Assembly: GCA_036172665.1 (NCBI GenBank)
Contig: CM069874.1
Location: 54,046,707 to 54,110,706 of the forward strand
Source of the DNA: Prosopocoilus inquinatus
Taxonomy: Eukaryota > Arthropoda > Insecta > Coleoptera > Lucanidae
Direction: 5' to 3'
DNA: 64,000 bases
The number at the start of each line of letters is the position of its first letter. The first letter of the stretch is position 1. The notes under the pieces are model-generated. The model was not told where the DNA came from. It made no database searches and was given only the letters and a program-made list of their open reading frames with translations. Below are positions 13,001 to 54,000 of this stretch, piece after piece. The position numbers were made by a program, and so were the translations under genes.

Positions 13001-13336
13001 TCCCAAACGATATCGAGATAGCTAACTTTTGTTTTCTCCACTGAGTTTTTCTCGAAAAAGCAGCGTCGGGTCGCGAAAACGGTTTTCTTCTATTCGTATA
13101 AATAACCGAAAAACCCTGTAAAACGATTAAAAATGGTCCACTCTGTATAGTTTCAATATGACATATCTGAAAGTCACCTTTGATTATGTGTCTTCCTAGT
13201 ATCATATCTAAAACGTTGGAACACTTAAAGAAACCGCCGCACTGCCTGTTTCAAAGAAAGATGACACTATCACTAAGTTTGTGATTTTTGGAGCTAAGGA
13301 GTTAATCTAATTAGCATTCGTTTTCCACTTATCACA
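10080..13336. other. Intergenic stretch, no gene found
   Basis: Mostly AT-rich. It holds a truncated short dispersed repeat at about 11922-12020 and a distinctly GC-richer patch at about 12470-12760 whose second half (TTTCAATAAGG.TCAAATTC through TTAGTGTAC) is homologous to 45200-45315, so the patch is partly a dispersed repeat rather than a promoter island. Small open frames at 9996-10217 and 12838-13205 show no protein signature. Confidence 0.5.
11922..12020 (-). repeat. Short dispersed repeat, truncated copy
   Basis: Matches the element at 50045-50221: TAGCGACATCCTGCGATCGCTT, then GAAGCCCCAAATATGACTGAAACAGCTGTACAGAGG. It lacks the CTCGAGCAG end. Confidence 0.6.
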
Positions 13337-15159
13337 TACAGGCTGTTTCAAATTCGACCCTCACCATGGGGATCTCGCTTATTTGAAGATATAGAAGGTG
13401 GGTTTAAATTTGGCAAAGTTGCTGAATTTGATGAGCATTAATAATCCGGAGAGAAAAAAATTCTATGTAAACTCTTATTCGGAATAATTGTAAAAAAAAG
13501 AAAAACTGTCATTTTCTTATTTTGCCTCTATCTTCTTTATTTAAAGAGATATAAAAATAATAAAAATACTTTCTTAAGGCACTTTTCAATTCTCTACGCA
13601 GTGGTAAACACTATTTTTCAATAACACATTTCGTCAAGTTGATACCATCATCAAGTTCATTTTTCCTTATGGCGCCCATATTGAAACTTGGTGGCAAAAT
13701 AATCTACTCATTATCCCGATTACGACAACATAGCACAAGTTATAAAAATCCTTTAAAACAAGGCCAGAATAGTTAGAATAGTGTGAAATAAGAAAAATTC
13801 TGGTTAACAGAAGATAGTTGAGGGTTTAAATTAAAAGCAATGTGTTCGTTAGACACTAATTTACCAAATATTGTTTGTGTGTATAATAGAAACACAAAAC
13901 AGTAAGTGAACGGTACTTGAGAACATATCCAGACAACAAACAATAGCTTAGAATAATAATATTACATAATTTTGTTGCAAATCATTTTTTTTTTTGGAGT
14001 GAATCCCTCGAGCAGCCTCTGCAAAGCTGTTCCAGCTCTATTTGGGGCTTCATCAAAAACGATTTGCAAATTTTTTTTTAAAACTTTGATTATGCGTTAA
14101 CAGACATGGACGACCGCGTTGCATGGGATGACTTATTATGTAGCAAACTGGGTTCAACTTGTCGCTCCTAATGCAATGTTGAATCAAAAAGCGTTTGAAG
14201 GATGTCGCTGTTTAAACTATTCAATAATATTACAATTAGACGTAATTTTGAAAAATGAGAATCGATTACAATAATACAGGAACAAAAATGCCTGTTATGT
14301 GTGAAGTTAAATACAGCTTCTCATGAAATTTGGGTAGTACAATCATTTGGCAATAACTCATTACAGATCTGGAGGTTACGTAACACTAAGCTAAGACATG
14401 CCGTCCAAATTCCGTGGCAAGAGTTGATAAAAATTTTTTAAAATTACTCTATAAATAAACCTGAAAATACACCCACTCACATCGGTCATTTTTGCTAGGA
14501 ATTGATTTCCTTTCTTCGTCGAATCAATACATTTCAATAATCAATATTAAGCTGTCGTTTGTTCTCTAAATAGGTTCAAAAGAATCGTTCCTTGTTGTTT
14601 CTGTGTTTCTGTTGTGCAAACAAAAAGTATTTAGTGAATTACTGTCTAACGAACACATTGTTTTTAATTTAAACCCTCAACTATCTTCTGTTAACCAGAA
14701 TTTTTCTTATTTCACACTATTCTAACTATTCTGGCCTTGTTTTAAAGCATTTTTATAACTTGTGCTATGTTGTCGTAATCGGCATAATGAGTAGATTATT
14801 TTGCCACCAAGTTTCAATATGGGCGCCATAAGGAAAAATTAACTTGATGATGGTATCAACTTGACGAAACGTGTTATAGAAAAATAGTATTTACCACTAC
14901 GTAAAGAATTGAAAAGTGCCTTAAGAAAGTATTTTTATTTTTTGATATCTCTTTAAATAAAGAAGATAGAGGTAAAATAAGAAAATGACAGTTTTTCTTT
15001 TTGTACAATTATTTCGAATAAGAGTTAACATAGAAACTTTTTCTTTCCGGATTATTAATACTCATCAAATTTAGCAACTTTGCCAAATTTAAACCTACCT
15101 TATATCTCTTCAAATAAGCGAGATCCCCATAGTGAGGGTTGAATTTGAAACAGCCTGTA
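13337..15159. mobile_element. Large foldback element, about 520-bp inverted arms
   Basis: The left arm starts TACAGGCTGTTTCAAATTCG. The right arm ends with the inverted sequence CAAACAGCCTGTA preceded by TTGAATTTG. Inverted similarity extends to about 13855 on the left and 14645 on the right, where GTTAACAGAAGATAGTTGAG pairs with its complement. The core contains a copy of the short dispersed repeat near 14003-14075. Total length and arm layout match the element at 5174-7000. Confidence 0.8.
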
Positions 15160-16068
15160 TATGGAAATAAAAAAAAAATTGAATGTGAAGTGTTTGAGAC
15201 ATCTTCTGTTAATGTTTTTTTTTTCAAATGGAACATACTGTATGTTACCATCTACTTATTAGAATTCAATTTTCTTTCGTCTACAATAATACAGTGCTGT
15301 TTGAAAAAAAAAACGTGTAATAATTTTTCTACCTTCATATTTGTAATCAGCGGAAAAGGACAAACAGATTCGCTAAATCGATCGACTCTCTGGCTCGAAA
15401 AATAAGAAAGTTAGCAATGGTGCAGATTTATTTTGAAACAGGCTGTATATGTTTCGGTTTTGTTTCCATTTCTAAACGTTTAGAATAAAAGCTTCAAAAA
15501 CTGAAAAGTGAATACACAATCATTGTTAACTATGAAAATTTGCTATTAATACACATTTTGTTAAAGGAAGCTTCTGAAAACTTTTGATAGCATACCTACT
15601 TACTTACTTACAGTTAGTAACAAATATGTACCATGAAACCAAACAACTGATAACAAAATACAAGACAACTGCTACCTATTGTGACAGTCTGTGGTTAACT
15701 TTTTTCTATTATTATTATTATTATAAAGTATATACTAAAATCGTTTGTTATAATCAGATGTACCCTTATTTGATTCCGACAACGGAAATTACAACATTTA
15801 GTCAGCAGGAAATACTTAATAAAGTGTGTGTGTGCAACTTAATAATAATTTAAAATTAAGTGATTTGTTCGTAGAAATTCTTGTTGTGTTAGGTATGCTG
15901 TGTTTTAAAGCTATACAACAGATTGATTTATGTCTTGTTTAACAGCAAAACAGAACATAATCGGCAAGTAGCTATTAAAGTTGCACACCAGTAAACAAAC
16001 TGCTGATAAATAATGATAAGAGTGACATACGCAGCCATGTTAATGATCGGGGCGTTTGTTGTACTTAC

Positions 16069-18092: not shown

Positions 18093-18417
18093 TGTTACGT
18101 TTCTAGGGTTTGAGTTTATTTATTTAAACGAATAAAACACTCGATAAAAACTTAACCGTAATTTAATAAAGCTTAAAAACTAATTTATTTCTAACAATTT
18201 ATTTTCACACTAAAATCTAACTTCGACTATCGCTGTTCGAATTCGACTGACTGGTGAGTCAACTCCGGGCGATTTTATATCTACTGTTGGCGTCTGGAAG
18301 TCTCGATGCTGGAAGATTCTAGTTTGCTCGATATGGGCCCCGAACGCGTGACGGCCGATGATACATCGAAGCGGCCGACTTCTTGGCGCCTTGCGCTAAG
18401 CCGGTTGGTGCGCCACA
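18093..18417 (-). repeat. 3' LTR of the gypsy element
   Basis: In element orientation it starts TGTGGCGCACC and ends CGTAACA (TG...CA). It has a TATAAAA box (18273-18279), an insect initiator TCAGT about 26 bp downstream (18246-18250) and several AATAAA polyadenylation signals. The last 32 codons and stop of pol (18319-18417) lie inside it, so the U3 part is also coding. Confidence 0.95.
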
Positions 18418-21400
18418 CTGCCCCCTTCTTAAAAACGTTTCGTCTCGAAATGTTCCTGGTGATAGTCTTGAAGGAGGGTGTCGGAATCTACATGCTGGCC
18501 CATTCTTGCAACTTCCCGTCTGGAAGAAGTAACAGTCTACGGTTTTGCTGTTGCTGACTGTTGCCTGTGGGTGGTGGCTGCAGACTAGGACTTCAATTCC
18601 CGTTCTGTGGAAGATGACTTCCAGCATGCTTCGAATTACTCTCCAGTCTAGTCCGTCCAATCCGCAGCCCAATTTGGGGATGGCTAACTTCATCTGATGG
18701 GTCTCTATTAGCTGTGTCCTCAGGCTATATAGGGCTCTCCACATACTTTGATAGTCAGGTTTACCGCTTGATGTCTTCTTAGTGACTAAATAATGCACGT
18801 GGCGCCTCCTATCTGCCGTCGAATCAATGATCTGCAAGCTCTTGCCTACCACGGGATGCTGTCTTCGTAGCTCCTCGATTTGGCCAAATTTCTTCCTAAA
18901 CACCTGAGCGATTCCTTTGGACATTTTCAGGTCTTCTGCTACGCAGTGGGCCAGACTGTACTCCGGTGGCACTTTAAAGAGATCTTGTTGCTTCTCCGTG
19001 GTCACTCCAAACCGTGCCTTGCTTCCTTCGGCGTGATGAGACATGAAGGTTTCGAAGTTCACTTCGGAAACTTGCGCCCTTTGTACTGTCCCTTCATCTG
19101 CTTCTCCATGATAAGGGGCTATCCGGTTGAAGTGGATTACTTTGGGTTTGCCATGGGGGACCTTCTTGATGCGGTAAACGACGTCGTTGATCCGTTTCAT
19201 CACTTTGTAAGGACCTTCCCAAGAGGTCTGTAATTTTGGGGAGAGGCCTCGACGTCTTTGGGGGTTATAAAGCCAGACCAGTGCTCCAGGTTGGTATCCC
19301 CCGTGTTGAGCGTTGATGTCATAGTGCTCCTTCATCCGATCGCTGGCCATCTGTATATTGTGACGCACTTGGTTGTGGATATCATCCATTTTCCTGCGTA
19401 ATTTGCTCACGTAATCTTCGTCGGCAGAGACTTCGCCAGGCTTCACACCAAACTTCAGGTCGCAGGGCAGTCTCGGCTCTCGCCCGAATACCACTTTCGC
19501 GGGAGTCTCCCCTGTTGTCTCATGAACAGATGAGCGGTATGCCATTAGAAACAGGGGGATGTACGTGTCCCAGTCCCTCTGATGATTGGAAACGACCTTG
19601 GACAAATGTCGGTTGATGGTTCTATTGAACCTTTCCACCATTCCGTCCGACTGTGGGTGGAGTGCAGTTGTTCTAGTTTTTCGTACGCCGAGCAGAGTAC
19701 ACACGTTCTTGAACAAGGCCGATTCAAAGTTCCTTCCTTGGTCTGAATGCAGTTCCATAGGTGCACCATACCGACTGATCCATTCCCTGACAAGGACTTC
19801 CGCAATAGTGACCGCCTCTTGGTTAGGTAGGGCGTAAGCTTCAACCCACTTACTAAAGTAGTCCATTACCACGACGATGTACTTGTTTCCACCATTCGTT
19901 TCTGGAAACGGGCCGGCTACATCAATGGCAACTCTCTCAAAAGGACTTCCAACGTTGTACTGTCTCATGGGAGCCTTACCCCGCCTGTGGGGGCCGTTAC
20001 TGGCTGCGCAGACTGCACACTTTCTGCACCAATCCTTCACGTCTTCCTTGCAGTTCACCCAGTAAAATCTTTCGCGCACCTTCTCCATAGTCTTCTTAAC
20101 TCCCAGATGCCCTCCGGAAGTTCCATCGTGAAGTTCCCTCAGAACTTCTGGCACCCTATTCTTGGGGATCAGTAACTGTGTCTTCTGTTCCATGCCTTCC
20201 TGATTCTCTATGCTTCGTCTCAGAAGACCACGATCCAACACTATGGAGTCCCACTGCGCCCAGTATGATTTTACGGACGGTGCACATGGTGCTACCTCTT
20301 CCCAGGTAGGCCTCGCGTCCCTGCTTTTCCACTCTAGCACTAATTTCAAATCCGGGTCGTTCTCCTGGTCTCTTCGCAGTTCTTCGGCTTGCCATTTGTC
20401 GTCAACAAGGGCTGTCCTCGCAGTCGTGGCTACTTTCTCGTCCAAACGACTACAGTGCTTACAGTCTTCGGCACAGGGTCTTCTCGACAAAGCATCGGCA
20501 TTTCGATGGCTAGTTCCTGCCCGATGCTGAATTTCAAAATCGTACTCCTGAAGTCGTTCGATCCATCGTGCAACTTGTCCTTCTGGGTTCTTGAAACGGA
20601 GAAGCCATTTTAGAGCGGCGTGGTCGGTCCTCAGCAGGAAGCGTCTACCATACAAGTACTTGTAGAAGTGTTCTATCGTTTTTACGACGGCTAGCAATTC
20701 CCTTCTTGTGACGCAATAGTTTCGTTCCGGCTTTGATAGGACTTTACTGAAGTAGCCGATCATCTTCTCTTGCCCCTCTTGTATCTGGGAGAGTACGCCA
20801 CCAATCCCAACGTTGCTAGCATCTGTGTCCACGACGAACTTGCCTTCCGGGAGAGGATAACTCAGAATAGGAGCACTAACCAAGTACTGCTTTAGTTGTT
20901 CAAAGCCAATTTGACACTGTTGGTCCCATTCAAATGGACGACCTTCTTCAGTGAGTTTTGTTAACGGCTTAGCAATGTCTGCAAATCCAGGAACGTAGCG
21001 CCGATAGTAAGTGCACAGGCCAAGGAAACTCCTTATTTGGTGTTTATTTCTGGGAGTTGGCCAGTCTTTCACCACCTGAATCTTCACAGGGTCCACGGCG
21101 ATTCCATTTCCATTAACAATGTGCCCCAGGTAATTCACTTCCTTCTGGAACAGGTGACACTTCTTGAGGCTAAGCTTTAGTCCAGCTCCGCGAAGCCGCT
21201 GGAACACTCCTTCCAGGTTCCTTAAGTGGTCGTCGAACGTCTTTCCCACGACAATTATGTCGTCAAGGTACACCATGCACGTTGTCCAGGACAGACCTTT
21301 CAGAACCGTCTCCATTAACCTCTCGAATGTCGCTGGGGCATTACATAACCCGAATGGCATCACTGTGAACTGCCACAGACCCATACCAATGGAAAACGCC

Positions 21401-22662
21401 GTCTTTTCTCGATCTTCGGGCGCCAGCTCCACTTGCCAATATCCACTCTTTAAGTCCAAAGTTGAGAAGATCTTTGAGCCGGCCAGGGTGTCCAGGGTAT
21501 CATCAATCCGGGGCAAGGGGTAGCTGTCCTTCTTGGTGACATTGTTGAGTAACCGGTAGTCTACACAGAATCTGGTGGACCCATCCTTCTTCTTCACAAG
21601 CACTACTGGTGACGCCCACGGGCTGCTTGATGGTTCTATCACATTATCCTTTTCCATCTCGCGAATAATGCGTTCCGCTTCTTCACGCTTTGCCAACGGT
21701 AATCGCCTTGGAGCTTGACGGATAGGTCTTTCTTCTCCAGTCTCTATTTTGTGTTTCACGACATCAGTTCTTCCCTTGGATCCATCTTCTACCTCGAATA
21801 CATCTTGATAACGGCCGATCAGATTCTTTGCTTTTGTCTTCTGGTCTAGAGTCAATTCCTGGGCTGTTGACATAACCATTTCCCATAATTTCTTTGGGAC
21901 TTTCGCTTCTGGCACGTTTGTTTCAAGTTGCCGGGAGATGGAGGACACCATGGTGCAGCTTCCCAAGATTGTTCCTTTCTTGATATTGACAGAGAAACAA
22001 TTGACGTTCATCAGGCGGACAGGTACTTCCTTCTTCGCCGTCAACAACATTTTCCCAACGAGGACTCCTCTTCCAATCCTTTGATCATCAGTATTAGGTT
22101 CAACCATAATGACTTGCCCATCTTGAAAAACACCGTCCAGTTTTGCGTCGACGATAACCTCAGTCCTGCTGGGTAATACAACGTCTTCAGCGAGGACTAC
22201 TCGAGCGGCCACGTCCCCTCGTTGATGTAGAACCAACTCCTCATTATTGACCGCCATCACGCCACGCTTTAAGTCCAATTGGAACCCGTGGGCACACATG
22301 ACGTCCATGCCCAAAATTGCCTCGTCCTCTATATCTGCCACCAGTGCACGGTGTTTAATTGGAGTTGAACCAATGGTGATGATAACCTCTACTTCACCGT
22401 GGACAGTTGCTGATGTTCCAGTTGCAGTTTTCAGTCTCCACTTGGTCGGCTCGGTGCGTCCAGATGACTTAATGACGTCGGGTCTTAGGATGGTCTTCGT
22501 CGCACCCGTATCCAACAACATGGTGTGAGGAATGTCATCAATGGTGACATCCACGAAGACTCTGCTGGTTAACTGCCGTAGGGATATTACTTGCTTGGCT
22601 TTCGTCTTTGGGGGCCTTTGAATACGGGTCGACGTTTGCCCCTCTGCACCGACCCGGCTTAG
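18319..22662 (-). CDS. pol: Pol of gypsy element: PR-RT-RH-IN plus C-terminal macrodomain and CCCH zinc finger
   Basis: There is no ATG of its own. The frame opens just upstream of the gag stop and is probably reached by -1 slippage at 22662-22668. Residues are numbered from the GTG at 22554. Protease has DTGA at 15-18. Reverse transcriptase has D367 in LDLKSGYWQ and YLDD at 429-432. RNase H has D576, E619 and D644. Integrase has the zinc-binding H809, H816, C846 and C849 and the catalytic triad D878, D938, E974 with the canonical 35-residue spacing, followed by a GPY/F-type module (SWEGPYKV, about 1111-1130). After the integrase, where an envelope gene would sit in errantiviruses, residues about 1190-1328 match TARG1/OARD1-type macrodomains and 1341-1359 form a CX7CX5CX3H finger. 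The tail is encoded by the LTR. All catalytic residues I can place are intact. Confidence 0.95.
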   Translation of the reverse strand, partial: LSRVGAEGQTSTRIQRPPKTKAKQVISLRQLTSRVFVDVTIDDIPHTMLLDTGATKTILRPDVIKSSGRTEPTKWRLKTATGTSATVHGEVEVIITIGSTPIKHRALVADIEDEAILGMDVMCAHGFQLDLKRGVMAVNNEELVLHQRGDVAARVVLAEDVVLPSRTEVIVDAKLDGVFQDGQVIMVEPNTDDQRIGRGVLVGKMLLTAKKEVPVRLMNVNCFSVNIKKGTILGSCTMVSSISRQLETNVPEAKVPKKLWEMVMSTAQELTLDQKTKAKNLIGRYQDVFEVEDGSKGRTDVVKHKIETGEERPIRQAPRRLPLAKREEAERIIREMEKDNVIEPSSSPWASPVVLVKKKDGSTRFCVDYRLLNNVTKKDSYPLPRIDDTLDTLAGSKIFSTLDLKSGYWQVELAPEDREKTAFSIGMGLWQFTVMPFGLCNAPATFERLMETVLKGLSWTTCMVYLDDIIVVGKTFDDHLRNLEGVFQRLRGAGLKLSLKKCHLFQKEVNYLGHIVNGNGIAVDPVKIQVVKDWPTPRNKHQIRSFLGLCTYYRRYVPGFADIAKPLTKLTEEGRPFEWDQQCQIGFEQLKQYLVSAPILSYPLPEGKFVVDTDASNVGIGGVLSQIQEGQEKMIGYFSKVLSKPERNYCVTRRELLAVVKTIEHFYKYLYGRRFLLRTDHAALKWLLRFKNPEGQVARWIERLQEYDFEIQHRAGTSHRNADALSRRPCAEDCKHCSRLDEKVATTARTALVDDKWQAEELRRDQENDPDLKLVLEWKSRDARPTWEEVAPCAPSVKSYWAQWDSIVLDRGLLRRSIENQEGMEQKTQLLIPKNRVPEVLRELHDGTSGGHLGVKKTMEKVRERFYWVNCKEDVKDWCRKCAVCAASNGPHRRGKAPMRQYNVGSPFERVAIDVAGPFPETNGGNKYIVVVMDYFSKWVEAYALPNQEAVTIAEVLVREWISRYGAPMELHSDQGRNFESALFKNVCTLLGVRKTRTTALHPQSDGMVERFNRTINRHLSKVVSNHQRDWDTYIPLFLMAYRSSVHETTGETPAKVVFGREPRLPCDLKFGVKPGEVSADEDYVSKLRRKMDDIHNQVRHNIQMASDRMKEHYDINAQHGGYQPGALVWLYNPQRRRGLSPKLQTSWEGPYKVMKRINDVVYRIKKVPHGKPKVIHFNRIAPYHGEADEGTVQRAQVSEVNFETFMSHHAEGSKARFGVTTEKQQDLFKVPPEYSLAHCVAEDLKMSKGIAQVFRKKFGQIEELRRQHPVVGKSLQIIDSTADRRRHVHYLVTKKTSSGKPDYQSMWRALYSLRTQLIETHQMKLAIPKLGCGLDGLDWRVIRSMLEVIFHRTGIEVLVCSHHPQATVSNSKTVDCYFFQTGSCKNGPACRFRHPPSRLSPGTFRDETFLRRGQCGAPTGLAQGAKKSAASMYHRPSRVRGPYRAN
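18418..18430 (-). promoter_or_regulatory. Polypurine tract
   Basis: On the element strand AAGAAGGGGGCAG abuts the start of the 3' LTR, where plus-strand DNA synthesis is primed. It lies within the pol reading frame, encoding residues just upstream of the LTR-encoded tail. Confidence 0.8.
18478..18984 (-). other. TARG1/OARD1-like macrodomain and CCCH zinc finger within Pol
   Basis: The macrodomain begins DLFKVP, then YSLAHCVAEDLKMSKGIA, then FRKKFG, YLVTKK, and PKLGCGLDGLDW. In human TARG1 (established) K84 in the ITKK segment and D125 in GCGLD are the catalytic residues removing ADP-ribose from acidic side chains. The equivalents here are K1259 and D1300 and both are present, so activity is plausible (inference). 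The finger, CYFFQTGSCKNGPACRFRH, is of the RNA-binding CCCH kind. Nothing upstream shows a frame break, so both are part of the Pol polyprotein. Confidence 0.88.
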
Positions 22663-22668
22663 TTTAAC
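22611..22668 (-). promoter_or_regulatory. -1 ribosomal frameshift signal joining gag and pol
   Basis: The element RNA reads G UUA AAC in gag phase (22662-22668) followed at once by the gag stop UAA. Slippage by -1 gives GUU AAA in the pol frame, which opens at 22689. Five nt downstream is a perfect 7-bp stem, CGGGTCG (22650-22656) with CGACCCG (22625-22631). GGGGC in its loop (22638-22642) can pair with GCCCC downstream (22611-22615), giving an H-type pseudoknot. Heptamer, spacer and structure all fit the standard -1 signal. Confidence 0.85.
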
Positions 22669-24185
22669 TGTGGCTTCCTTGGATCCTGTCTAGGCTTTGG
22701 ACATCGCCTGCGAACATGTCCTTCCTCCTGGCAATTCCAACACACCAGCGGCTTCTTCTGCTTGAGAACCTGTTCCACAATGCGGCGAACATCCTCGGCG
22801 GTGGCATATTCCTTGGATTGCCCCTTATTAGCAGATCCCACCTTGGCGTTGGTGGACTCTTCCTCTTCTTCCTCTTGGAAGTCCATAGCCGCTCGAACCT
22901 TGACATGCCCTCTTGAAACTCGTCTCGCCGCTTCAAATTCCAAGGCATAAGCCAATGCGTTCTTGGACGTCTTCGGATGGGTCATTCTCAATGCCTGCTG
23001 GTTGTCTGGGTCACGGATTCCATCTATGAAGGTCTGCACCGTCAAACATTTGAGGAATTCAACAGGAGCTGTGGGATATGCCAACTGGGCCAGACGCGCA
23101 ACGTCTGCTTCGAATTCCTGAAGAGTTTCTCCGGATTTCTGACAGCGATTCCTCAACTGCGCATGGTATACCTCGGTCAGATGGGCCTGTCCGTAACGCA
23201 TTTCCATCCTATTCACCAGCTTGTCGAAGTCTTCTTGTTCCTCTGGCGGCATCGTCTGTAGCACATCGATAGCGTCCCCTCTCAAGGCCACAATTAACGA
23301 AGTGGCTTTTTCGCTGGCCGTCCATCTGTTCGCCTTTGCTGCTGCTTCGAACTGTTTGAAGTAGTTGGGCCAAGAAGACTTTCCATCGAACGTTGGTGGT
23401 TTTATCTTCAGTTTAGAATTTTCTGCTGGTCCTTCCACAATTCGGGTTTCATTATTTTCTAGTACTTCTACTGGTGGCTGATCCCCGAACACTCGCAACC
23501 CCGCCATGATTTGTTCCAGATTTTTGATTTTATTATCCTGCTGGAATATTATTTCTTCCACATTTTCTTGAAGGTTTCTTGTTTCTTCCGATATTTTTAC
23601 CACTAGTTTATCTTCGAGTCCTTTCGTCTGTTCTAGAAATTCACCCTTTAAATTTCCGGACTGTTCTAGAAGTTTCTCGTCGAAATTTCTGGATTGCTCT
23701 AGAAATTTCTCGTCTAAGTCTCTAGATTGTTCCAACAATTTATTTTGTAATTTGTCGAAATTTCCAGATTGTTCTAGAAGCTTCTCCTCTAAATTTCTGG
23801 ATTGTTCTTGAAGCTTCTCTAAATTTCCAGACTGTTCTTGAAACTTCTCGTCCAAATTTCTGGATTGTTCTCGAAGTTCGTCCTTGAAATTTCCAGATTG
23901 TTCTAGAAGTTTCTTCTCTAAATTTCCAGACTGTTCTTGAAACTTCTCGTCCAAATTTCTGGATTGTTCTCGAAATTCATCCTTCAAGATTTTATTAAAA
24001 TCGGCGGGACCACACGAAATTTCGAAAAGGAACGTCTCTGGATCTTCACCAGCTGTCAACAAATCGGATCGGAGACGCTGTTGAAGTGCGCCTTTCAAAC
24101 CACAGGTTTCTAACTCTCGTTCTTCCAATTCGGTTTTTAATTCGGCCACTTTTAAGTCTTTCAACAACACTTTTCTCGTAGCCAT
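22659..24185 (-). CDS. gag: Gag of gypsy element with SAP-like motif and 11-residue repeats
   Basis: Gag is the structural protein that packages element RNA into cytoplasmic particles; here it has 508 residues. Residues about 7-41 (LKVAELKTELEERELETCGL and onward, ending QRLRSDL) fit the SAP DNA-binding motif pattern. Residues 72-195 form about eleven near-tandem 11-residue units of the type [FL]xEQSxNLxEK, one shortened to 10 and one extended to 14, predicting a long hendecad coiled coil. Residues about 268-420 resemble the retrotransposon gag/capsid region (WPNYFKQFEAAA). C482, C485, H490 and C495 form a CX2CX4HX4C zinc knuckle near the C-terminus. The ATG lies 105 nt after the LTR. The stop overlaps the frameshift signal feeding pol. 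Confidence 0.93.
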   Translation of the reverse strand: MATRKVLLKDLKVAELKTELEERELETCGLKGALQQRLRSDLLTAGEDPETFLFEISCGPADFNKILKDEFREQSRNLDEKFQEQSGNLEKKLLEQSGNFKDELREQSRNLDEKFQEQSGNLEKLQEQSRNLEEKLLEQSGNFDKLQNKLLEQSRDLDEKFLEQSRNFDEKLLEQSGNLKGEFLEQTKGLEDKLVVKISEETRNLQENVEEIIFQQDNKIKNLEQIMAGLRVFGDQPPVEVLENNETRIVEGPAENSKLKIKPPTFDGKSSWPNYFKQFEAAAKANRWTASEKATSLIVALRGDAIDVLQTMPPEEQEDFDKLVNRMEMRYGQAHLTEVYHAQLRNRCQKSGETLQEFEADVARLAQLAYPTAPVEFLKCLTVQTFIDGIRDPDNQQALRMTHPKTSKNALAYALEFEAARRVSRGHVKVRAAMDFQEEEEEESTNAKVGSANKGQSKEYATAEDVRRIVEQVLKQKKPLVCWNCQEEGHVRRRCPKPRQDPRKPQLN

Positions 24186-24270
24186 TGTTTTTTTTTTTTT
24201 TTTCTATACTGTACTTATTTAATAATCTGATTAAATTTAATTTACTTTAAATTGTTAATTTATTTGCACA

Positions 24271-24290
24271 AACCCGCACACCGACACCAC
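24271..24290 (-). promoter_or_regulatory. Putative primer-binding site
   Basis: Directly after the 5' LTR, with a one-base offset, the element strand reads TGGTGTCGGTGTGCGGG. The leading TGG would pair with a tRNA CCA end. I could not assign the tRNA. Confidence 0.6.
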
Positions 24291-24615
24291 TGTTACGTTT
24301 CTAGGGTTTGAGTTTATTTATTTAAACGAATAAAACACTCGATAAAAACTTAACCGTAATTTAATAAAGCTTAAAAACTAATTTATTTCTAACAATTTAT
24401 TTTCACACTAAAATCTAACTTCGACTATCGCTGTTCGAATTCGACTGACTGGTGAGTCAACTCCGGGCGATTTTATATCTACTGTTGGCGTCTGGAAGTC
24501 TCGATGCTGGAAGATTCTAGTTTGCTCGATATGGGCCCCGAACGCGTGACGGCCGATGATACATCGAAGCGGCCGACTCCTTGGCGCCTTGCGCTAAGCC
24601 GGTTGGTGCGCCACA
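24291..24615 (-). repeat. 5' LTR of the gypsy element
   Basis: Identical to 18093-18417 except for one transition. Promoter for the element RNA: TATAAAA, then TCAGT at the expected spacing. Confidence 0.95.
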
Positions 24616-30000: not shown

Positions 30001-33000
30001 TAATCTTATGGTCTTCATTATTGGCATGTTCAGATAAAGCACAAGCATTAGGTTAAGTTTAATATCACTTTTATGAGAAATAATTCTCGAGTGAAGAGTT
30101 CTTGATGTTTGACCAATATAAACAGAATCACAATCATGACAAGGAATTTCATAAATAGAATTAATTTGTTTGAATTTGTCAAGTGGATCTTTAACTTTTG
30201 TAAAAAGAGACTTAATTGTTAATAAATTTTTAGTTGCAATCTGAATATTTTTATTTTTTAATACTTTTATTAGTCGAGATGTAAGATTTGGTATGCATAT
30301 TAAAGATCTAAAAACTTTACCAACATTAATTGTTTGTGAATTATTATTAATTTGAGAAATAGGTTCTACTCTTTGTTGAGTATTGAAAATTAACTTACTT
30401 AGCATTGCACAAGGATAGCTATTTTTTATGAGAATATTTTTTAATTTGTGTAAGTTTTTATTCAACAAAGAAGGATGAGAAATCTTTTCTATACGATTTT
30501 TTAATCTTAAAATCGTGTTAATTTTCATTTTATATGGATGACAAGAATGAAAATTAATATAACGCCCAGAACTAATAGGTTTCGTGTACCAATCAATAAT
30601 GATTGTATTATTTTCTGAACGAATAACTTTCATGTCCAAGAAAGGAACACTCCTTCTGTTTCTTTTTCAATAGTAAATTGAATATTAGGATTATAAATTG
30701 TTAAAATGTCCTTAAAATCTCATCAATACCTTCTTGGGAAGCTACGCAAATAATATTATCAACATAGCCAAGGAATTTCAAATGATAACTTTGGTATGCA
30801 TTCAATTAATAAATCATCCATAACATATTGAACAATAATTGGAGATATATTAGCACCCATAGGTGTTCCAAGAATTTGTTTATAATAAATATTATTGAAT
30901 TTGAAATAAGTGAAATCAAAAAGAAATTTTATTATTATTAATTTTTCTTTTAATAAGTTACTTACCAAAGATATTTGTTCCCAGTTTTTTTCAATACTTT
31001 GTAAGAATAATTCTAAAGGCATGTTGGTAAAAAGTGAAACAAAATCTAGACTAATAATTACATAATTAATTGGGATTAATCTGTTGTTTGCAAATTCAGA
31101 AAATTCGAAAGAATCTTGAACATAAAATTCAAATATGATAGGACGTAGAGCCAACGTTGGTTTATGAATTTTAGATAAGCCATAATATCTTGGACAACAA
31201 GAAGAATAATTCTTTAATGACTTAGCTGTCTCTTCGTCTATCATATTAACAGTCTTTAATTCAGAAATAATTTGATTGGCTTTCTTCTCGAATGAACCAG
31301 TAGGGTCTCTTTTTAAAATCTGATAATAGTTGACATTATTTAATAAATCCAAAGATTTATTAATGTAATCATCTTTGTCTAAAGCAACTGTCACATTACC
31401 TTTATATGATTGTATTAATATTAAATTGATATTTTCTTTTAAGAATTTCTTACAATCATAGTAAACTTGTCTTAAATTAGAATTAATATTTTGATTTTTA
31501 TGTACATAATTAGTGACCTACGATGATTACGATCTTTTTCTTCATGACAGGAAATAATGGATTCCGATTCTGCTAATATTTTCTTTATCTGAACATCAAT
31601 AAGTGAAGGAGTAATGCAAAATTTTGGTCCAAGTGCAAAAAAATTCGAAAATTCAGGTTGAATGTCAGTAGAACTAATATTTTTAAACCAATTAGATTCA
31701 ACCTTTATTTTAAGAATTTGTTCAGATTTCAACTTATTGAATTTTTGAATGTTACTATTCCTAATTTCTTAAAATTTTTTTATTATAAAAAGAATTTTGA
31801 TATCGAGAAAACTCATGATAAGTTTCATTTGGAATTAAATCTTTAACTTCTAAATTTATTATTATGATAAGTAGTGGTTTAACTTTGAGTACTCACTAAG
31901 GAGTAAGTAATCATGTGAAATTGTTCTTAGTGTTAATTATTAATTTTAAAATTTGTTTTGTAGAAACCTTGATAAAGGAAATAAATTTTCCGAAAGCTCG
32001 GTTGAACTTTAAAAGAGTATTACTATCAACTTTTTTGACTGTAGCCCAGTTATAGAATTGATTTCTTAATTGATCAGTCGTGATCATACTTCGCATTTGT
32101 TATTCGTATGTAGCTTTGAAAAAAAAAACAAATATCGAATTCCTATTTTTTTAAGAAATAAATAATTGCTAACCATAGCATTATTTCGCCGTACATCTTG
32201 AAATAAAGCTATATATACATATCGCAAGACTTACTATTTTCATAAACAAGGGTCTTAAAAAAGTAAGTAGACCTATTTTCAAAAACAATTCTCTTTGTCA
32301 GGCTAACATTTTTGTTTAAAAAAAAGCAAAAGTAAAACTTACAATTGGTAAAGTGGTAAAAATAATTAAACAGTTTTATTTATTATTCTCGAGACCCTGT
32401 GATACGGTCGTAAATAATGCATAAAATTTGCAAATAACTGAGACAAGAATCAAATCAACTAATAAATGTTTACAATGGTAACCTATCTCTGTCACTTTAT
32501 AGAAATTTTGCACAAAAAATATCATCCTGTCGTAGTTATTGAAGATTAAACATTATGGTTTCTTTTTATTTGTTTTGTTAATTTTATTAATTTTTTTGTT
32601 TTTTATTTGTACATATTTGCTAATAAATCTTGTAACTCAATAAATATGTTTATTTTGTCGACACTTACTGCGAAAAATTACCAAAATTTTACTAAAATAT
32701 GCCATTATAAGAAACAATAATTGATAACAAGAAAACTAATGGAAATAGGCGTAGGGAATGCTAATACTAATCGATGTAGAATTTGATTCTGCATCTCATG
32801 ATGCAAAAATATACAGGGTGTTTCATTTACGAAAACTGAGTTTGGGGCAGTTGAACAGAGCAAGACACCATATTTTGACCACTCTGTGAATTTGTCAGTG
32901 ATAACTATATATGATTTGAAAGAGTGAATTCGAAGATATCTCAAAAACCGTTACATTTAAGTACGCGGAAGCCTTAACAACTTTTCCTTGGAATAACGTG

Positions 33001-48004: not shown

Positions 48005-51000
48005 ATTAAAGAAAAATAACAAGTAAAAAGTTTTAAATCTTAAACCGGATAAAATTAGAAATAGAAAGGCACTCACTATCGATTAACGAAGCTATCAATC
48101 GATAGTGAAACCTTGAGTGCCTTTCCAATAACAAGTAAAAAGTTTTTAATCTTAAACCGGACAAAATTATAAATGGAAAGACACTCAACATTTCACTATC
48201 GTTGATAGCTTTGTCAATTGATAGTGGAACGTTGAGTCCCTTTCCATTTATAATTTTGTCCGGTTTAAGATTAAAAACTTTTTACTCGCAATTTTCATCG
48301 GACAAGAATCAACTTCATTTAAAGAAAAAAAGTTTTTGACACAGTGCATCCGACATACTTTTGGATGCATTAGAATGAAAGGTAATTCCGCTGCAAGTTC
48401 CCCTCCAAGAGCCCCCAGGAATAACTTGACTTTTACGGCGTAGGAAACAATGATTCCAAAGGCGTCTCTTGCTTCAGGATCGGCAAGGCTGGAAAAAATA
48501 ACTGTAAATTAACAAAACAATTGCTCAACAATTATATCATCTTCAGTGTTTCATTTAAATTTGAAATCATCCCGGAATATTACTAACCGATGAAATTGTA
48601 AAATAATTTTGACTTTTATAAATCAACTTACAGAGTTGATGATGCTAAGTTGGTATCTTGTTTCTTCAACTGACCATCTAATGCGATTCCACGCCGTTCT
48701 TTATTAGACGACAGCAATGGTATTAGGTAGACGATTTTTTGAAGACTGGAGCCGGGTTGAATAGGGCAACCTTCCCTAAAATGTTTACGTTTCAGAAACT
48801 TTCGCGGTGCCGATTTTTTTTTTTTTTTTGAAACTTACTGTGTTTCAATGCTTGCAACCGAGTTTCGGTACTGTCCACTTTGAAACAGTATGACATCGAC
48901 TCCCTGTTGCACCATGGCTTTAATTTTCTTGACAATTTTATTGCTGTTGTTACGAATGCAAATGTTTATGCCGATTTTTTCCCCGTGATGGTACAACTGC
49001 AAATTGTACAAAAAAAATAGGGAATATTTGACGTGGGACGGGGAATTCTTTTTTCAGTGCTTGCCTGTTTGTCCAAGGTTACTTCGAGTTCAAGTTCTCC
49101 AGGGCTTAAAAGGAAGTCCTTTCGAACGACGGTGCACGGTTGCCTTCCTTGTTTACTGGGTGCATATTGCACTTTCCTTATTGCCATAATAACTGTACCT
49201 CTTTTATTGGTCCGATCAGTTTCGCAATCGCCAACAAAAAGTTTGATGTAATAGTGCACTCCGCAGGGTTGCCCTTCATCACTAGTTCCTGGTGATATAA
49301 AAATTTCATGAAATGTATTGTAATATCTTTTTTTTTTTATTGTTTTTATTCCTAAAATTTCAAAATGGATATTCTACATTTTTATCAGTGGATCAGGTAG
49401 TGAGCAGATGATATGTTTTATGTCCAGGATTGAAAACACTCTTTCCACAAAAATGTTACAATTTTGTAAAAAGAATATTTACGTTTTTGTGTTTAATTGT
49501 ATTTCACAAGTGCTCAGTACATCAAACTATTAAAACATAGTGTTTAAAACATCGTTTAAAAGAAAAGTGGTTTAAACACATTTTTTAAACTAATACTTTA
49601 AATTCATTTTCTGTCGCTTCAAGCGTAAAATAAACATATCTGATGAGTGCTTATTAAGGCAGAGTTTACATAATGAAATGGAGTGTCCGGATTTTATTCT
49701 CCCCTACTGTACCGTAGTATTTAATTTCTCTTCCTTTTACATTTACTCGTGCGCGATAAAACACAAAAAGTGACGATTTAAAAATTCTCAAGGTGGCATT
49801 TAATAACAAACATTCAAAATGAAATTGATGGATTACGTTACAAGATATAAGAAAAGAAAAACGTCAGAAGTAAGAAAAAAGTGAAAAACTATTTGACAAT
49901 CCAGAGACACAAACAAAACGGGAAAATAATAATTTTCTAAAGAAATTATAATTATTAATTAATTAAAAGCAATTGAAATTAAAAAAAAGTGAACTTTTTA
50001 ACAGCTAAGAAAAAGTAAAATTAAAATTCCTAACAATCTTTACACGCATAGATAAAACAGCGACATCCTATGATCGCTTTTTGACCTGATATTGCAGTGG
50101 GATACACAAATTTCGAGCTACGTTTCTGGTGAAGAAGCCCCAAATAGGGCTGAAACAGCTCTACAGAGGCTGCTCGAGGTTTTCACTGCAATCAAAAACG
50201 ATTTGCAACAAAATTTTTAAGACAATCTTTACATTACAAAAGAAACCGGAAGTCCTTTGACGATTAGCAGTATGTCGAAAAATTCCATTTTTTGTTTAAT
50301 TTATTGTCTCCAAAATTCAGGTTAATCGATTGATAAATAAAGATTCTAGAAGGGTGAGCACATAGCGCGGGACACCCGGTATTTAAATTTTTATTCCTTA
50401 AATAAACCAATTGGTCTATAAAACAAGATCCACAAATTAATACTAACACAGCAATTGAATTATCGAACATGAGCTTAACAAACTTCTACATTATACCTCA
50501 AAATACTGACTGAGCATCCTTTTTTCTAATTGATCTGTTATTTTAACAAGTGTTTCGTTTTTTAGAGGCAGGTCAATCAAAAAGAGAATGAACAATAACG
50601 GTCCGAGAACGCTCCCCTGGGGTACGCCCGTGGAGATTTTTGTTAGCTTGGATTCCTGGCCTCCGTGTTTGTCCATCATAACTACTTCTTGTAATCTGTT
50701 GGAAAGATACGATTTTACCCAATCGAGGGCATTTCCACTGATACCGTAGCGATCCATTTTTGAATACAAGATGTTCTGGTCTAGCGTCTCGAATACCTTC
50801 GTGAAATCCAAGAATAGTGCGCAAGCCAATTTATCATTTTCCCAGTTATGCAGGACGCTTGAAGTGAAATCATGGAGAGCAGTTTCGGTACTTTTTCCCT
50901 TCAAAAAACGGTGTTGGTTCGGATTCAAGAGGTTGTGTCGCAGCACAAAATTCTGTACTCTATTAAGCATAAGATTTTCAAATATTGTGGGGAAGGATGA

Positions 51001-54000
51001 TATCAGACTTGCAGTTGGACATGTCTTCAAGGTCTCCTCTCTTGAACACTGGCTTAACGATTGCAAGTTTGAGGTGTAAGGGGAACTGCCCGGTAGCTAA
51101 GGATCAATTTATGACTTCAACGAAGGGAAATGCTAATTGTTAAAAACTTTTTTTTTAGTAAAAACATTGGGAAGTTGTCCCAACCTGCCCTCCTTTTACT
51201 TTTCAGTTTACTGATAATATCGAGGATGGAAGTGGGATGGAGAAAAATAGGTTTAACATTGGATGGTATGTGACATTCATATTGACTTCCGTATTGTCTT
51301 TTTCCTCGTATTGTCTTCTTCTAGGGATGGTACTTTTCGGTATATCTTCTGCACGAAATGCATGCTTCTGCCGAAGGCTAGTCGGAACATTTTCAGGTGA
51401 TTTCTTTCCTAGACAATCTGAGACATACGCAGGCTATTCAATAGCTGAAATCCATACTAGTTACATTTTTTAAATGGAACATCGAGTAAATTTTTACGTA
51501 TTTTGAAAGCACGCATAACGAATAGGTAATAAAACAGCCAAAAATTACGGAAGTTTTGCTTAAGAGTATGTAAGATATTGACGTTCAAATGTAAAAACAT
51601 GCTTTGTTAAGGATTATGTATTTTGGAGGTAGTTATTACATTATATTTTCTAGAGAAACTAAACTCAAGAACTCAAGAAATCGCGAGACATTTTTTTTTT
51701 CTTTCATTATTTCTTTTCATTATTTCATCATAGCCTTTCCGTTCGGTTGATTTTAAATGTACTAATCGATTTCTATGATGGGTAAATATAGAAGTTTCTT
51801 ATTTTAACCTATTCCGTTAAGAATAAATAAAAATTTGACTGCTCTCAGTTTTTCCCAAATTGTGTGTAGAAACTGTAAAGAATTTTTTAAGCTGATGACA
51901 TATCTTTAACAAAGCCTAATCGAAACTTCTCATTATACAGTCTGTTTGATTTTGGCTGTCACGGCAGATATATCGGCTACTGTTAGGAAAAAATGTTTTA
52001 GAAGGAAAGTTGTTTTACATTTAATTTTCTATTATCTGCCTTAGTCGGAAAACCAATTGAGCAGTAAATGTGTTAGATGTAGCAAGTGCATTCAAAATTT
52101 TAAATGGAATGTACCCTATTTGACTACGTTTTCTAAAACTGCAAAAAATCTCTTTACAACGATGTATCATATGCTATAGTTATCTAATCAATTGAAAACC
52201 TAAATCGATAATTAACAATTGCATGCTTACGCTGATTAGGGCTTTATTCGAAAAGGTAGGCGATGAAACAAATGAAATTATTTTTCAGCTTCCAATTGAA
52301 CCAAATTCCTTATTACTTACTGTCTTGAAAACATGTGCTTTTCAACATAATAAACATATCAACATAAACAAAGTAATAATAAATTAATTGAGTAACGCGA
52401 AATGGCTGATAAATCCAAACAACGGAGGTCACTTTGAACAAGAGCTCTAGATATTATGAACTAAAATTTCAAATGAATTTACATGTTAATTTATTATTAC
52501 TTTGTTCATGTTGTTGGGTTGTATTTATGTTAGTTGTTTATGTTGTCAAGGTTCAAAATTAAGAAACATTTTTATAGGAAGCTGAAAAATAACTTCATTT
52601 GGTAAATAGGTAAAGCTTTTAATATTTAATTATAGATTTACATTTTTAATTGATTAGATAACTAGGACAAGTGATACACCGCTGTAAAGAGATTTTTTTA
52701 CAGTTTTAGAAAACGCAATAAAATTGAGTGCATTCCATTTAAAATTTTGAATACATTTGCTACATCTAACACATTTGATGCTCAATTGATTTTCTAACTA
52801 AGGTCGGTAATAGAAAATTAAATGTAGAATTAATTTCCTTCTATAACATTTTGTAGTATCTTTAACAATAGCCGAGATATCTGCTGTGACAACTAAAATC
52901 AAACGGACTGTATATAAGGTATTTCATTTAGATATTTCTTTTTGCGGCGACAGTTGGTATGTATTGTCGCCGCACAAAAAAATTGACATAAATTTAACAG
53001 TACTTAAACTTTTCATAATAACAGCTACCCAAAAATTTAAATTTAAATAACAAATAGTTTCTATAGATACAAAACTGTCTTTGTATGTACAAAACTTCCT
53101 TTGTACCTACAGCAACGATTTGATATTTAAATTTTAATTTTTGGGTAGCTGTTATTAATATTGATTCATAAATAAGTAAGTACACTTTTGTCGATATTAA
53201 AGTAACAGCCTAAATACTATTTGAGTTTTTCGATGCAATTGTTACTGAAAATGCAATATTTTATGCGAAAAGCGGTATACTTGTCGATTCGTTAGAATCG
53301 CTCGCCAATGAAAATTATTGAATTACTGAGTGATTATTTAAAAATAAGACTTTTAAATATGGAGCAACCTGTCCACCTTTACTACTTAGGCTCAGTTTTA
53401 CAATGACGGTTCAACTTTGAGCCGAAGCTTAAATACTTCACAACAACTGTTGAAATAATCATTGCTAAGGGTTTAAGCTTCAGCTCAAAGTTGAGCCCCA
53501 TTTGTAAAACTGGACCTTAGTAAAACATTATTTGATATACAAAATATATCGTTCACTGTGCAAACCAAAGACCATTTATTAATTGCTTGTTTTATATTTT
53601 TTTGGTGTTCGCATTTTGTATCCTAAATTAAATTTGAAATGCCTAAACTGTTTTAAAAGTGCTCAGTTACATTAATCGTTGATCAAAAAGGAAAAAAAGT
53701 ATCGATCATTTGGATTTGATTCATGGTTCATGTGGAAAAGCTCAGTCAGTATTTTAGAGGACACTAATTTTTTTTGCGTACTGAAATCATAATATTTAGA
53801 TGTCCGATTAAATACCTGCCTTATTATTTTGCGAACCCCAAAGTCGCAACAATAATAAAACTACTGTTTTATGTTAAGTTGGATAAGTATTTGAAGTGTT
53901 TTAAAACGTTATTTTTTTTTTGTTTTAAACATGATTAATTTTACGCATGTTTTTAACAATTTTTTTTTTAATTAAAAAAATGTTTTGTTTTAAAAAAATC

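Follow-up and report, generated by a model that had tools for sequence, protein, structure and literature searches.

We analyzed a 64,000-nucleotide stretch of the genome of the beetle Prosopocoilus inquinatus (GenBank assembly GCA_036172665.1, contig CM069874.1, positions 54,046,707 to 54,110,706; hereafter, the window). It contains, on the minus strand, a Ty3/gypsy retrotransposon spanning 18093 to 24615 from one long terminal repeat (LTR) to the other. The pol frame of this element does not stop after the GPY/F module at the end of the integrase but runs on through a linker, a macrodomain, a Cys-Cys-Cys-His (CCCH) zinc finger, and the polypurine tract before reaching its stop in the 3′ LTR. 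We call the part from the macrodomain onward the tail and number its residues separately. The macrodomain is of the TARG1 type, and we put the probability at roughly 0.55 that it is an active eraser, i.e., that the integrase of this Pol ends in a hydrolase that, together with the finger, frees molecules of the element of ADP-ribose.

The macrodomain occupies tail residues 3 to 137 (18580 to 18984), as defined by comparison of sequence and predicted fold. In all three sequence and fold comparisons, TARG1 (the human terminal ADP-ribose protein glycohydrolase, also called OARD1 or C6orf130) was the top-ranked macrodomain for the tail, with 37% identity and a similar predicted fold. A single-sequence structure model of the integrase end plus the tail was unreliable, with a mean predicted local distance difference test score (pLDDT) of 33. 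In the alignment to TARG1, K71 of the tail (codon at 18778 to 18780) falls on the catalytic Lys, K84, and D112 (codon at 18655 to 18657) falls on the catalytic Asp, which we take to be D125. When 146 sequences were aligned, the K71 position was Lys in all 145 rows that had a letter there, and the D112 position was Asp in 144 of 146. By sequence, predicted fold, and catalytic Lys and Asp, the macrodomain is thus TARG1-type, and ADP-ribosylhydrolase activity is predicted for it. These results bear out the first-pass annotation of this DNA, which had read from the letters a TARG1-type macrodomain fused in frame to Pol, with both catalytic residues kept (K1259 and D1300 in Pol numbering). Because TARG1 clears ADP-ribose both from Glu and Asp and from thymidine in DNA, as stated in the cited excerpt (PMC8501950), proteins and complementary DNA (cDNA) are both possible substrates.

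Gypsy elements of other insects, in beetles and in one leafhopper, have the same tail. A protein search with the tail as the query returned 25 proteins, some of them host-type OARD1 or unrelated small macrodomain proteins. The matches include Brassicogethes, a beetle, the leafhopper Macrosteles quadrilineatus, and Exocentrus, Acanthoscelides, Pyrocoelia, and Henosepilachna, which presumably are all beetles. When a longer piece of Pol was the query and scoring was confined to the tail, 221 proteins were returned; among the matches listed (120 of 221), 98 were from Aromia moschata and 16 from Molorchus minor. Many of the relatives have Integrase_p58_C upstream of the tail, and three have the whole set of protease, reverse transcriptase (RT), RNase H, and integrase.

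The 146 rows, which include the window, fell into 28 clusters at 80% identity. Because one cluster holds 102 Aromia rows, we used cluster representatives; 22 were kept after dropping the cluster of the window and five clusters of host-type or small proteins (P0020, P0021, P0022, P0024, and P0025). Compared with the tail in the window, the macrodomain had a mean identity of 0.57 (21 of 22 representatives usable) and the finger 0.54 (20 of 22), versus 0.21 (22 of 22) and 0.23 (13 of 22) for the two spacers. The block ending in the polypurine tract averaged 0.65 (20 of 22), and the LTR-coded end averaged 0.10 (10 of 22). Conserved islands between drifting spacers are the pattern expected from selection on two folded domains. 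The catalytic Lys was present in 21 of 21 representatives (one row stops short) and the catalytic Asp in 21 of 22. Eleven of 12 relatives had a macrodomain 54 to 61% identical to that in the window; in the twelfth, P0016, identity was 45%. The corresponding values were 77 to 81% for RT-RNase H (three relatives with the full piece), 69 to 77% for integrase (six relatives), and 46 to 59% for protease (three relatives). The macrodomain therefore evolves at about the rate of the protease and more quickly than either RT or integrase.

The element is a young copy, as the first-pass annotation had held, and belongs to a large, young family in its own genome. Its two LTRs differ by one mismatch. In a search of the 650-Mb assembly (173 contigs), 150 of 1,618 candidate places were scored; all 150 matched the tail, and 143 had no stop in the match. 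The full 223 residues were matched in 45 of the 150, and most of the others reached residue 205 to 209, which indicates that the copies diverge in the LTR-coded end. Fifty copies were read (L001 to L050), 30 of them the best scoring and 20 picked from lower ranks; 33 were distinct over the first 195 codons, and in all 50 the catalytic pair was intact. Codon models within the family were compared with a model in which the ratio of nonsynonymous to synonymous rates (omega) was fixed at 1 and kappa was on a short grid. Omega came out at 0.50 in the macrodomain (twice the log-likelihood difference [2ΔlnL], 6.4; 30 distinct sequences), 0.20 in the finger (2ΔlnL, 9.2; 13 sequences), and 0.65 over a 300-codon stretch of the integrase end (2ΔlnL, 4.8; 39 sequences). 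For 11 sequences of two other gypsy families of this genome, B and B2 (described below), omega was 0.136 (2ΔlnL, 58.6), a value that comes largely from one long branch; cross-family values of 0.03 to 0.05 are saturated. The case for selection leans on the island pattern, not on omega.

The first-pass annotation had also placed a CCCH finger behind the macrodomain, and this finger (CX7CX5CX3H; tail residues 149 to 173; 18472 to 18546) was recovered by both Pfam and PDB matches, scoring 28.1 bits against PF00642 (cutoff, 20.5). All four ligands, at the spacing CX7-8CX5CX3H, are present in 50 of 50 copies from the same genome and in 16 of the 22 divergent lineages; the finger is less constant than the macrodomain. 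Finger 4 of CPSF4 (CPSF30), its top match in the PDB, is described in the cited excerpt as a Fip1 binder that is thought not to bind RNA (PMC9512404). Two residues with which CPSF30 contacts Fip1, Y127 and F131, align with F156 (Tyr in 125 of 146 rows) and S160 (Arg in 122 of 146 rows) of the tail. Certain prolines reportedly block RNA binding by CPSF30 fingers; as in fingers 4 and 5 of CPSF30, GP precedes the third Cys (Ser in 106 of 146 rows, Pro in 14 of 146). The finger mixes some features of the Fip1-binding and RNA-binding kinds, and neither Fip1 binding nor the RNA targeting suggested in the first-pass annotation can be predicted confidently.

A second placement of the macrodomain was found when the same genome was searched with P0020, a host-type OARD1 protein of Aromia. 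All 118 places scored were matches, mostly to the family of the element in the window. One was a host-type OARD1-like gene (L051/L076; G000:C5:3752700-3753236), 61% identical to the Aromia protein and with an interruption inside the macrodomain that resembles an intron. The search also reached other gypsy families (L052 to L066, L068, L069, L075, L078, and L079, all in G000). Family B comprises 14 loci (L052 to L064 and L075). In one of these, L055, protease, TARG1-type macrodomain, and RT lie in one open frame (RVP_2, 5.2e-6; Macro, 1.5e-4; RVT_1, 2e-31; TARG1, 4.1e-31); other copies have stops in or beside the macrodomain (e.g., L058, L059, L060, and L062). Family B2 (L066 with L079) has the same order of protease, macrodomain, and RT. 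The RT pieces of B and B2 are 49% and 45% identical, respectively, to that of the window family, so both are gypsy lineages distinct from it. Family C (L065 and L068) has protease and then macrodomain (TARG1, 3.9e-37). In the 1.9 kb below its macrodomain we found no RT and, by eye, a stretch resembling an integrase end, and this copy therefore looks internally deleted. In family D (L069), the macrodomain is followed downstream by an RNase H piece (L078), and the upstream part is broken. The order protease-macrodomain-RT is thus complete in B and B2, half present in C, and not seen in D. The catalytic pair was intact in the nine B, B2, C, and D loci checked.

Rows with the domain at the integrase end, 17 in all and from both beetles and the leafhopper, formed one clade with support of 99/97 in a tree of 30 macrodomains. 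Four host-type rows grouped at 94/91, B with B2 at 98/91, and C with D at 90/84. Approximately unbiased (AU) tests of four groupings rejected none (P = 0.18 to 0.42), and hence do not decide between one capture and several; under either history, the macrodomain occupies two different positions in gypsy Pol. Both the integrase-end tree and the tail tree were poorly resolved, and they neither proved nor contradicted coinheritance. It is possible, if doubtful, that insect gypsy elements acquired TARG1-type erasers more than once, at the two Pol sites, as an antidote to ADP-ribosylation of retroelement products, which would be an unrecognized host barrier to transposition in insects.

The macrodomain, presumably an active enzyme, would stay with the integrase, whether or not it is cleaved from it, inside the particle and the preintegration complex; in family B it would ride with protease and RT. 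There it could strip the ADP-ribose that host transferases place on proteins, RNA, or single-stranded cDNA of the element, which would keep reverse transcription or integration unblocked, and the finger may help hold it to a target. Alphavirus and coronavirus macrodomains would be its functional counterparts, although its active site is of the TARG1/DarG type. Several observations weigh against this reading. One relative, P0016, has Ser in place of the catalytic Asp. Six of the 22 lineages lack an intact finger: it is absent in P0017 and P0019 (leafhopper-type), its first Cys is changed in P0006 and P0023, and it is cut or broken in P0013 and P0015. The copies in the genome were ranked by tail score, an ascertainment bias that lowers omega of the tail within the family. 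Finally, variants shared by at least two copies numbered 9 nonsynonymous and 5 synonymous in the macrodomain (ratio, 0.51) versus 11 of each kind in the integrase (ratio, 0.29), and thus on that count the macrodomain is not more constrained than the integrase; for singletons the ratios were 0.22 and 0.61. The codon models put omega below 1 in both macrodomain and finger, and the simple variant count is mixed.

The main rival explanation is that the macrodomain reads ADP-ribose instead of erasing it, steering the integrase, as a chromodomain might, toward chromatin that carries ADP-ribose, for example where it is open or damaged. It is well established that macrodomains bind ADP-ribose; the domain sits after GPY/F, where the chromodomain sits in Pol, and the finger could supply contacts to chromatin or RNA. 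However, a pure reader could do without the catalytic Lys and Asp, which 21 of 21 lineages and 21 of 22 lineages, respectively, retain, and it would leave unexplained why families B and C have the domain next to their protease. We therefore consider a reader unlikely. An eraser could also be aimed at the host: it might act where integration occurs, clearing ADP-ribose from PARP1 targets that serve in repair or stress responses, or it might alter germline signaling in favor of the element. The catalytic evidence is common to this explanation and to the one we prefer, erasure from the element's own molecules, and the present data do not distinguish them; fusion to the integrase and placement next to the protease would favor a target near element proteins, and a host target seems to us rather improbable. 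By contrast, there is very little chance that a piece of a host OARD1 transcript was fused accidentally and has been carried without function. A source is at hand in the OARD1-like gene L051 of the same genome, but the islands of conservation that stand out from drifting spacers across 22 lineages, the 143 of 150 copies without stops, the beetle and leafhopper clade at 99/97, and, more weakly, the omega values below 1 all speak against it. We accordingly reject passive debris, as the first-pass annotation did, at the level of the whole lineage, although single old copies might be debris.

The tail does not replace an envelope (env) gene, as the first-pass annotation had supposed. It belongs to the pol frame, which runs into the 3′ LTR, and it is the C terminus of Pol after GPY/F, the site of the chromodomain in chromoviruses. 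Beyond the integrase there was no other minus-strand open reading frame (ORF) of at least 60 amino acids and hence no separate env-like ORF; no env profile was searched. Chromoviruses, also Ty3/gypsy elements, likewise carry an extra domain at the integrase C terminus after GPY/F, but theirs is a chromodomain; the element in the window has a macrodomain and a CCCH finger, and a Pfam scan of the tail at E values up to 1 found no chromodomain, the domain that membership in the chromoviruses would demand.

The element shares the macrodomain subfamily and the catalytic Lys and Asp with TARG1/OARD1, but in the element the domain is part of a retrotransposon Pol, after the integrase and before a CCCH finger, with an activity that is predicted from sequence. 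DarG, the antitoxin of DarTG, is about 20% identical to the macrodomain of the element; it is bacterial and has no link to retroelements. Like that of the element, the macrodomains of alphaviruses, coronaviruses, and rubella virus lie inside a viral polyprotein, and a role in counterdefense is established for several viral macrodomains; such a role is conceivable here. Retroelements with an acquired macrodomain are already known: according to a review excerpt (PMC4977317), macrodomain ORFs occur in some fish endogenous retroviruses (Basta et al. 2009), where, as the review describes them, the domain is an additional ORF in epsilon-like vertebrate retroviruses. What appears to be new is the TARG1 subfamily, the fusion to integrase, the partner finger, and the two sites in Pol; in the open-license literature searched, we found no gypsy or other insect element, or LTR retrotransposon, with a TARG1-type domain. 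Conservation across distant insect elements and the second placement point to ADP-ribosylation as something that these elements must handle and suggest that they may need to erase a chemical mark placed by the host. This raises the question of which insect ADP-ribosyltransferase acts on retroelements, and on which molecule.

Among viral protein models, the closest to the tail was VP8 of Kadipiro virus (BFVD A0A8E0KJF2; 41% identity, E = 4.4e-15). Kadipiro virus is an RNA virus, and its VP8 has a TARG1-like domain; thrips virga-like and negev-like viruses were also among the matches. In IMG/VR, 31 viral contigs (L080 to L110), mostly large, have TARG1/DarG-like macrodomains at 22 to 39% identity.

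The LTRs, the order protease-RT-RNase H-integrase, and the H2C2 and GPY/F modules of the integrase place the element in the Ty3/gypsy group (Metaviridae). Each LTR is 325 bp (5′, 24291 to 24615; 3′, 18093 to 18417) with ATAT flanking its outer side. In pol, matches were obtained to aspartic protease (22297 to 22551; PF13975, 2.3e-10), RT (21115 to 21597; PF00078, 7.8e-39), the start of RNase H (20704 to 20928; two adjacent pieces, PF17919, 1.1e-22, and PF17917), which extends below 20704, and the H2C2 zinc domain and core of integrase (19663 to 20169; PF17921, 8.7e-21). The rve match, split in two by the boundary between scanned pieces, had E values of 6e-4 and 0.0062, both below the cutoff. 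The GPY/F-type module (Integrase_p58_C; 19114 to 19215; PF22938, 2.9e-12) is followed by the linker (18991 to 19113), which is partly conserved among relatives. The polypurine tract (18418 to 18430), read from the sequence adjoining the LTR start, codes for the conserved RRGQ of LRRGQC, and the LTR-coded end of pol with its stop is at 18319 to 18417. We considered LRRGQC as a protein motif and rejected it, since a block coded by the polypurine tract and the LTR start is the simpler explanation.

The gag ORF (22659 to 24185; 508 amino acids) has a SAP domain near its N terminus (24063 to 24164; PF02037, 2.7e-6), often also listed in the Aromia relatives with the tail, and a CCHC knuckle near its C terminus (zf-CCHC, 1.1e-5). 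A 33-bp tandem repeat of about 10 copies inside gag (23629 to 23977) codes for an 11-residue protein repeat. Stop-to-stop frames around the tail were 1,456, 1,509, or 1,947 to 1,996 codons long in nearly identical copies (e.g., L003 versus L001); gag and pol are probably in one frame in some copies of the window family and not in others. Elsewhere in the window are a large inverted repeat (13333 to 15163), with arms of about 600 bp that are 91 to 93% complementary and 597 bp apart, and other RT ORFs or fragments: one on the plus strand (1069 to 2406; PF00078, 1.4e-27) and two on the minus strand (50491 to 51066, 8.2e-17, and 30759 to 31394, PF00078 at 7.8e-5, below the cutoff).
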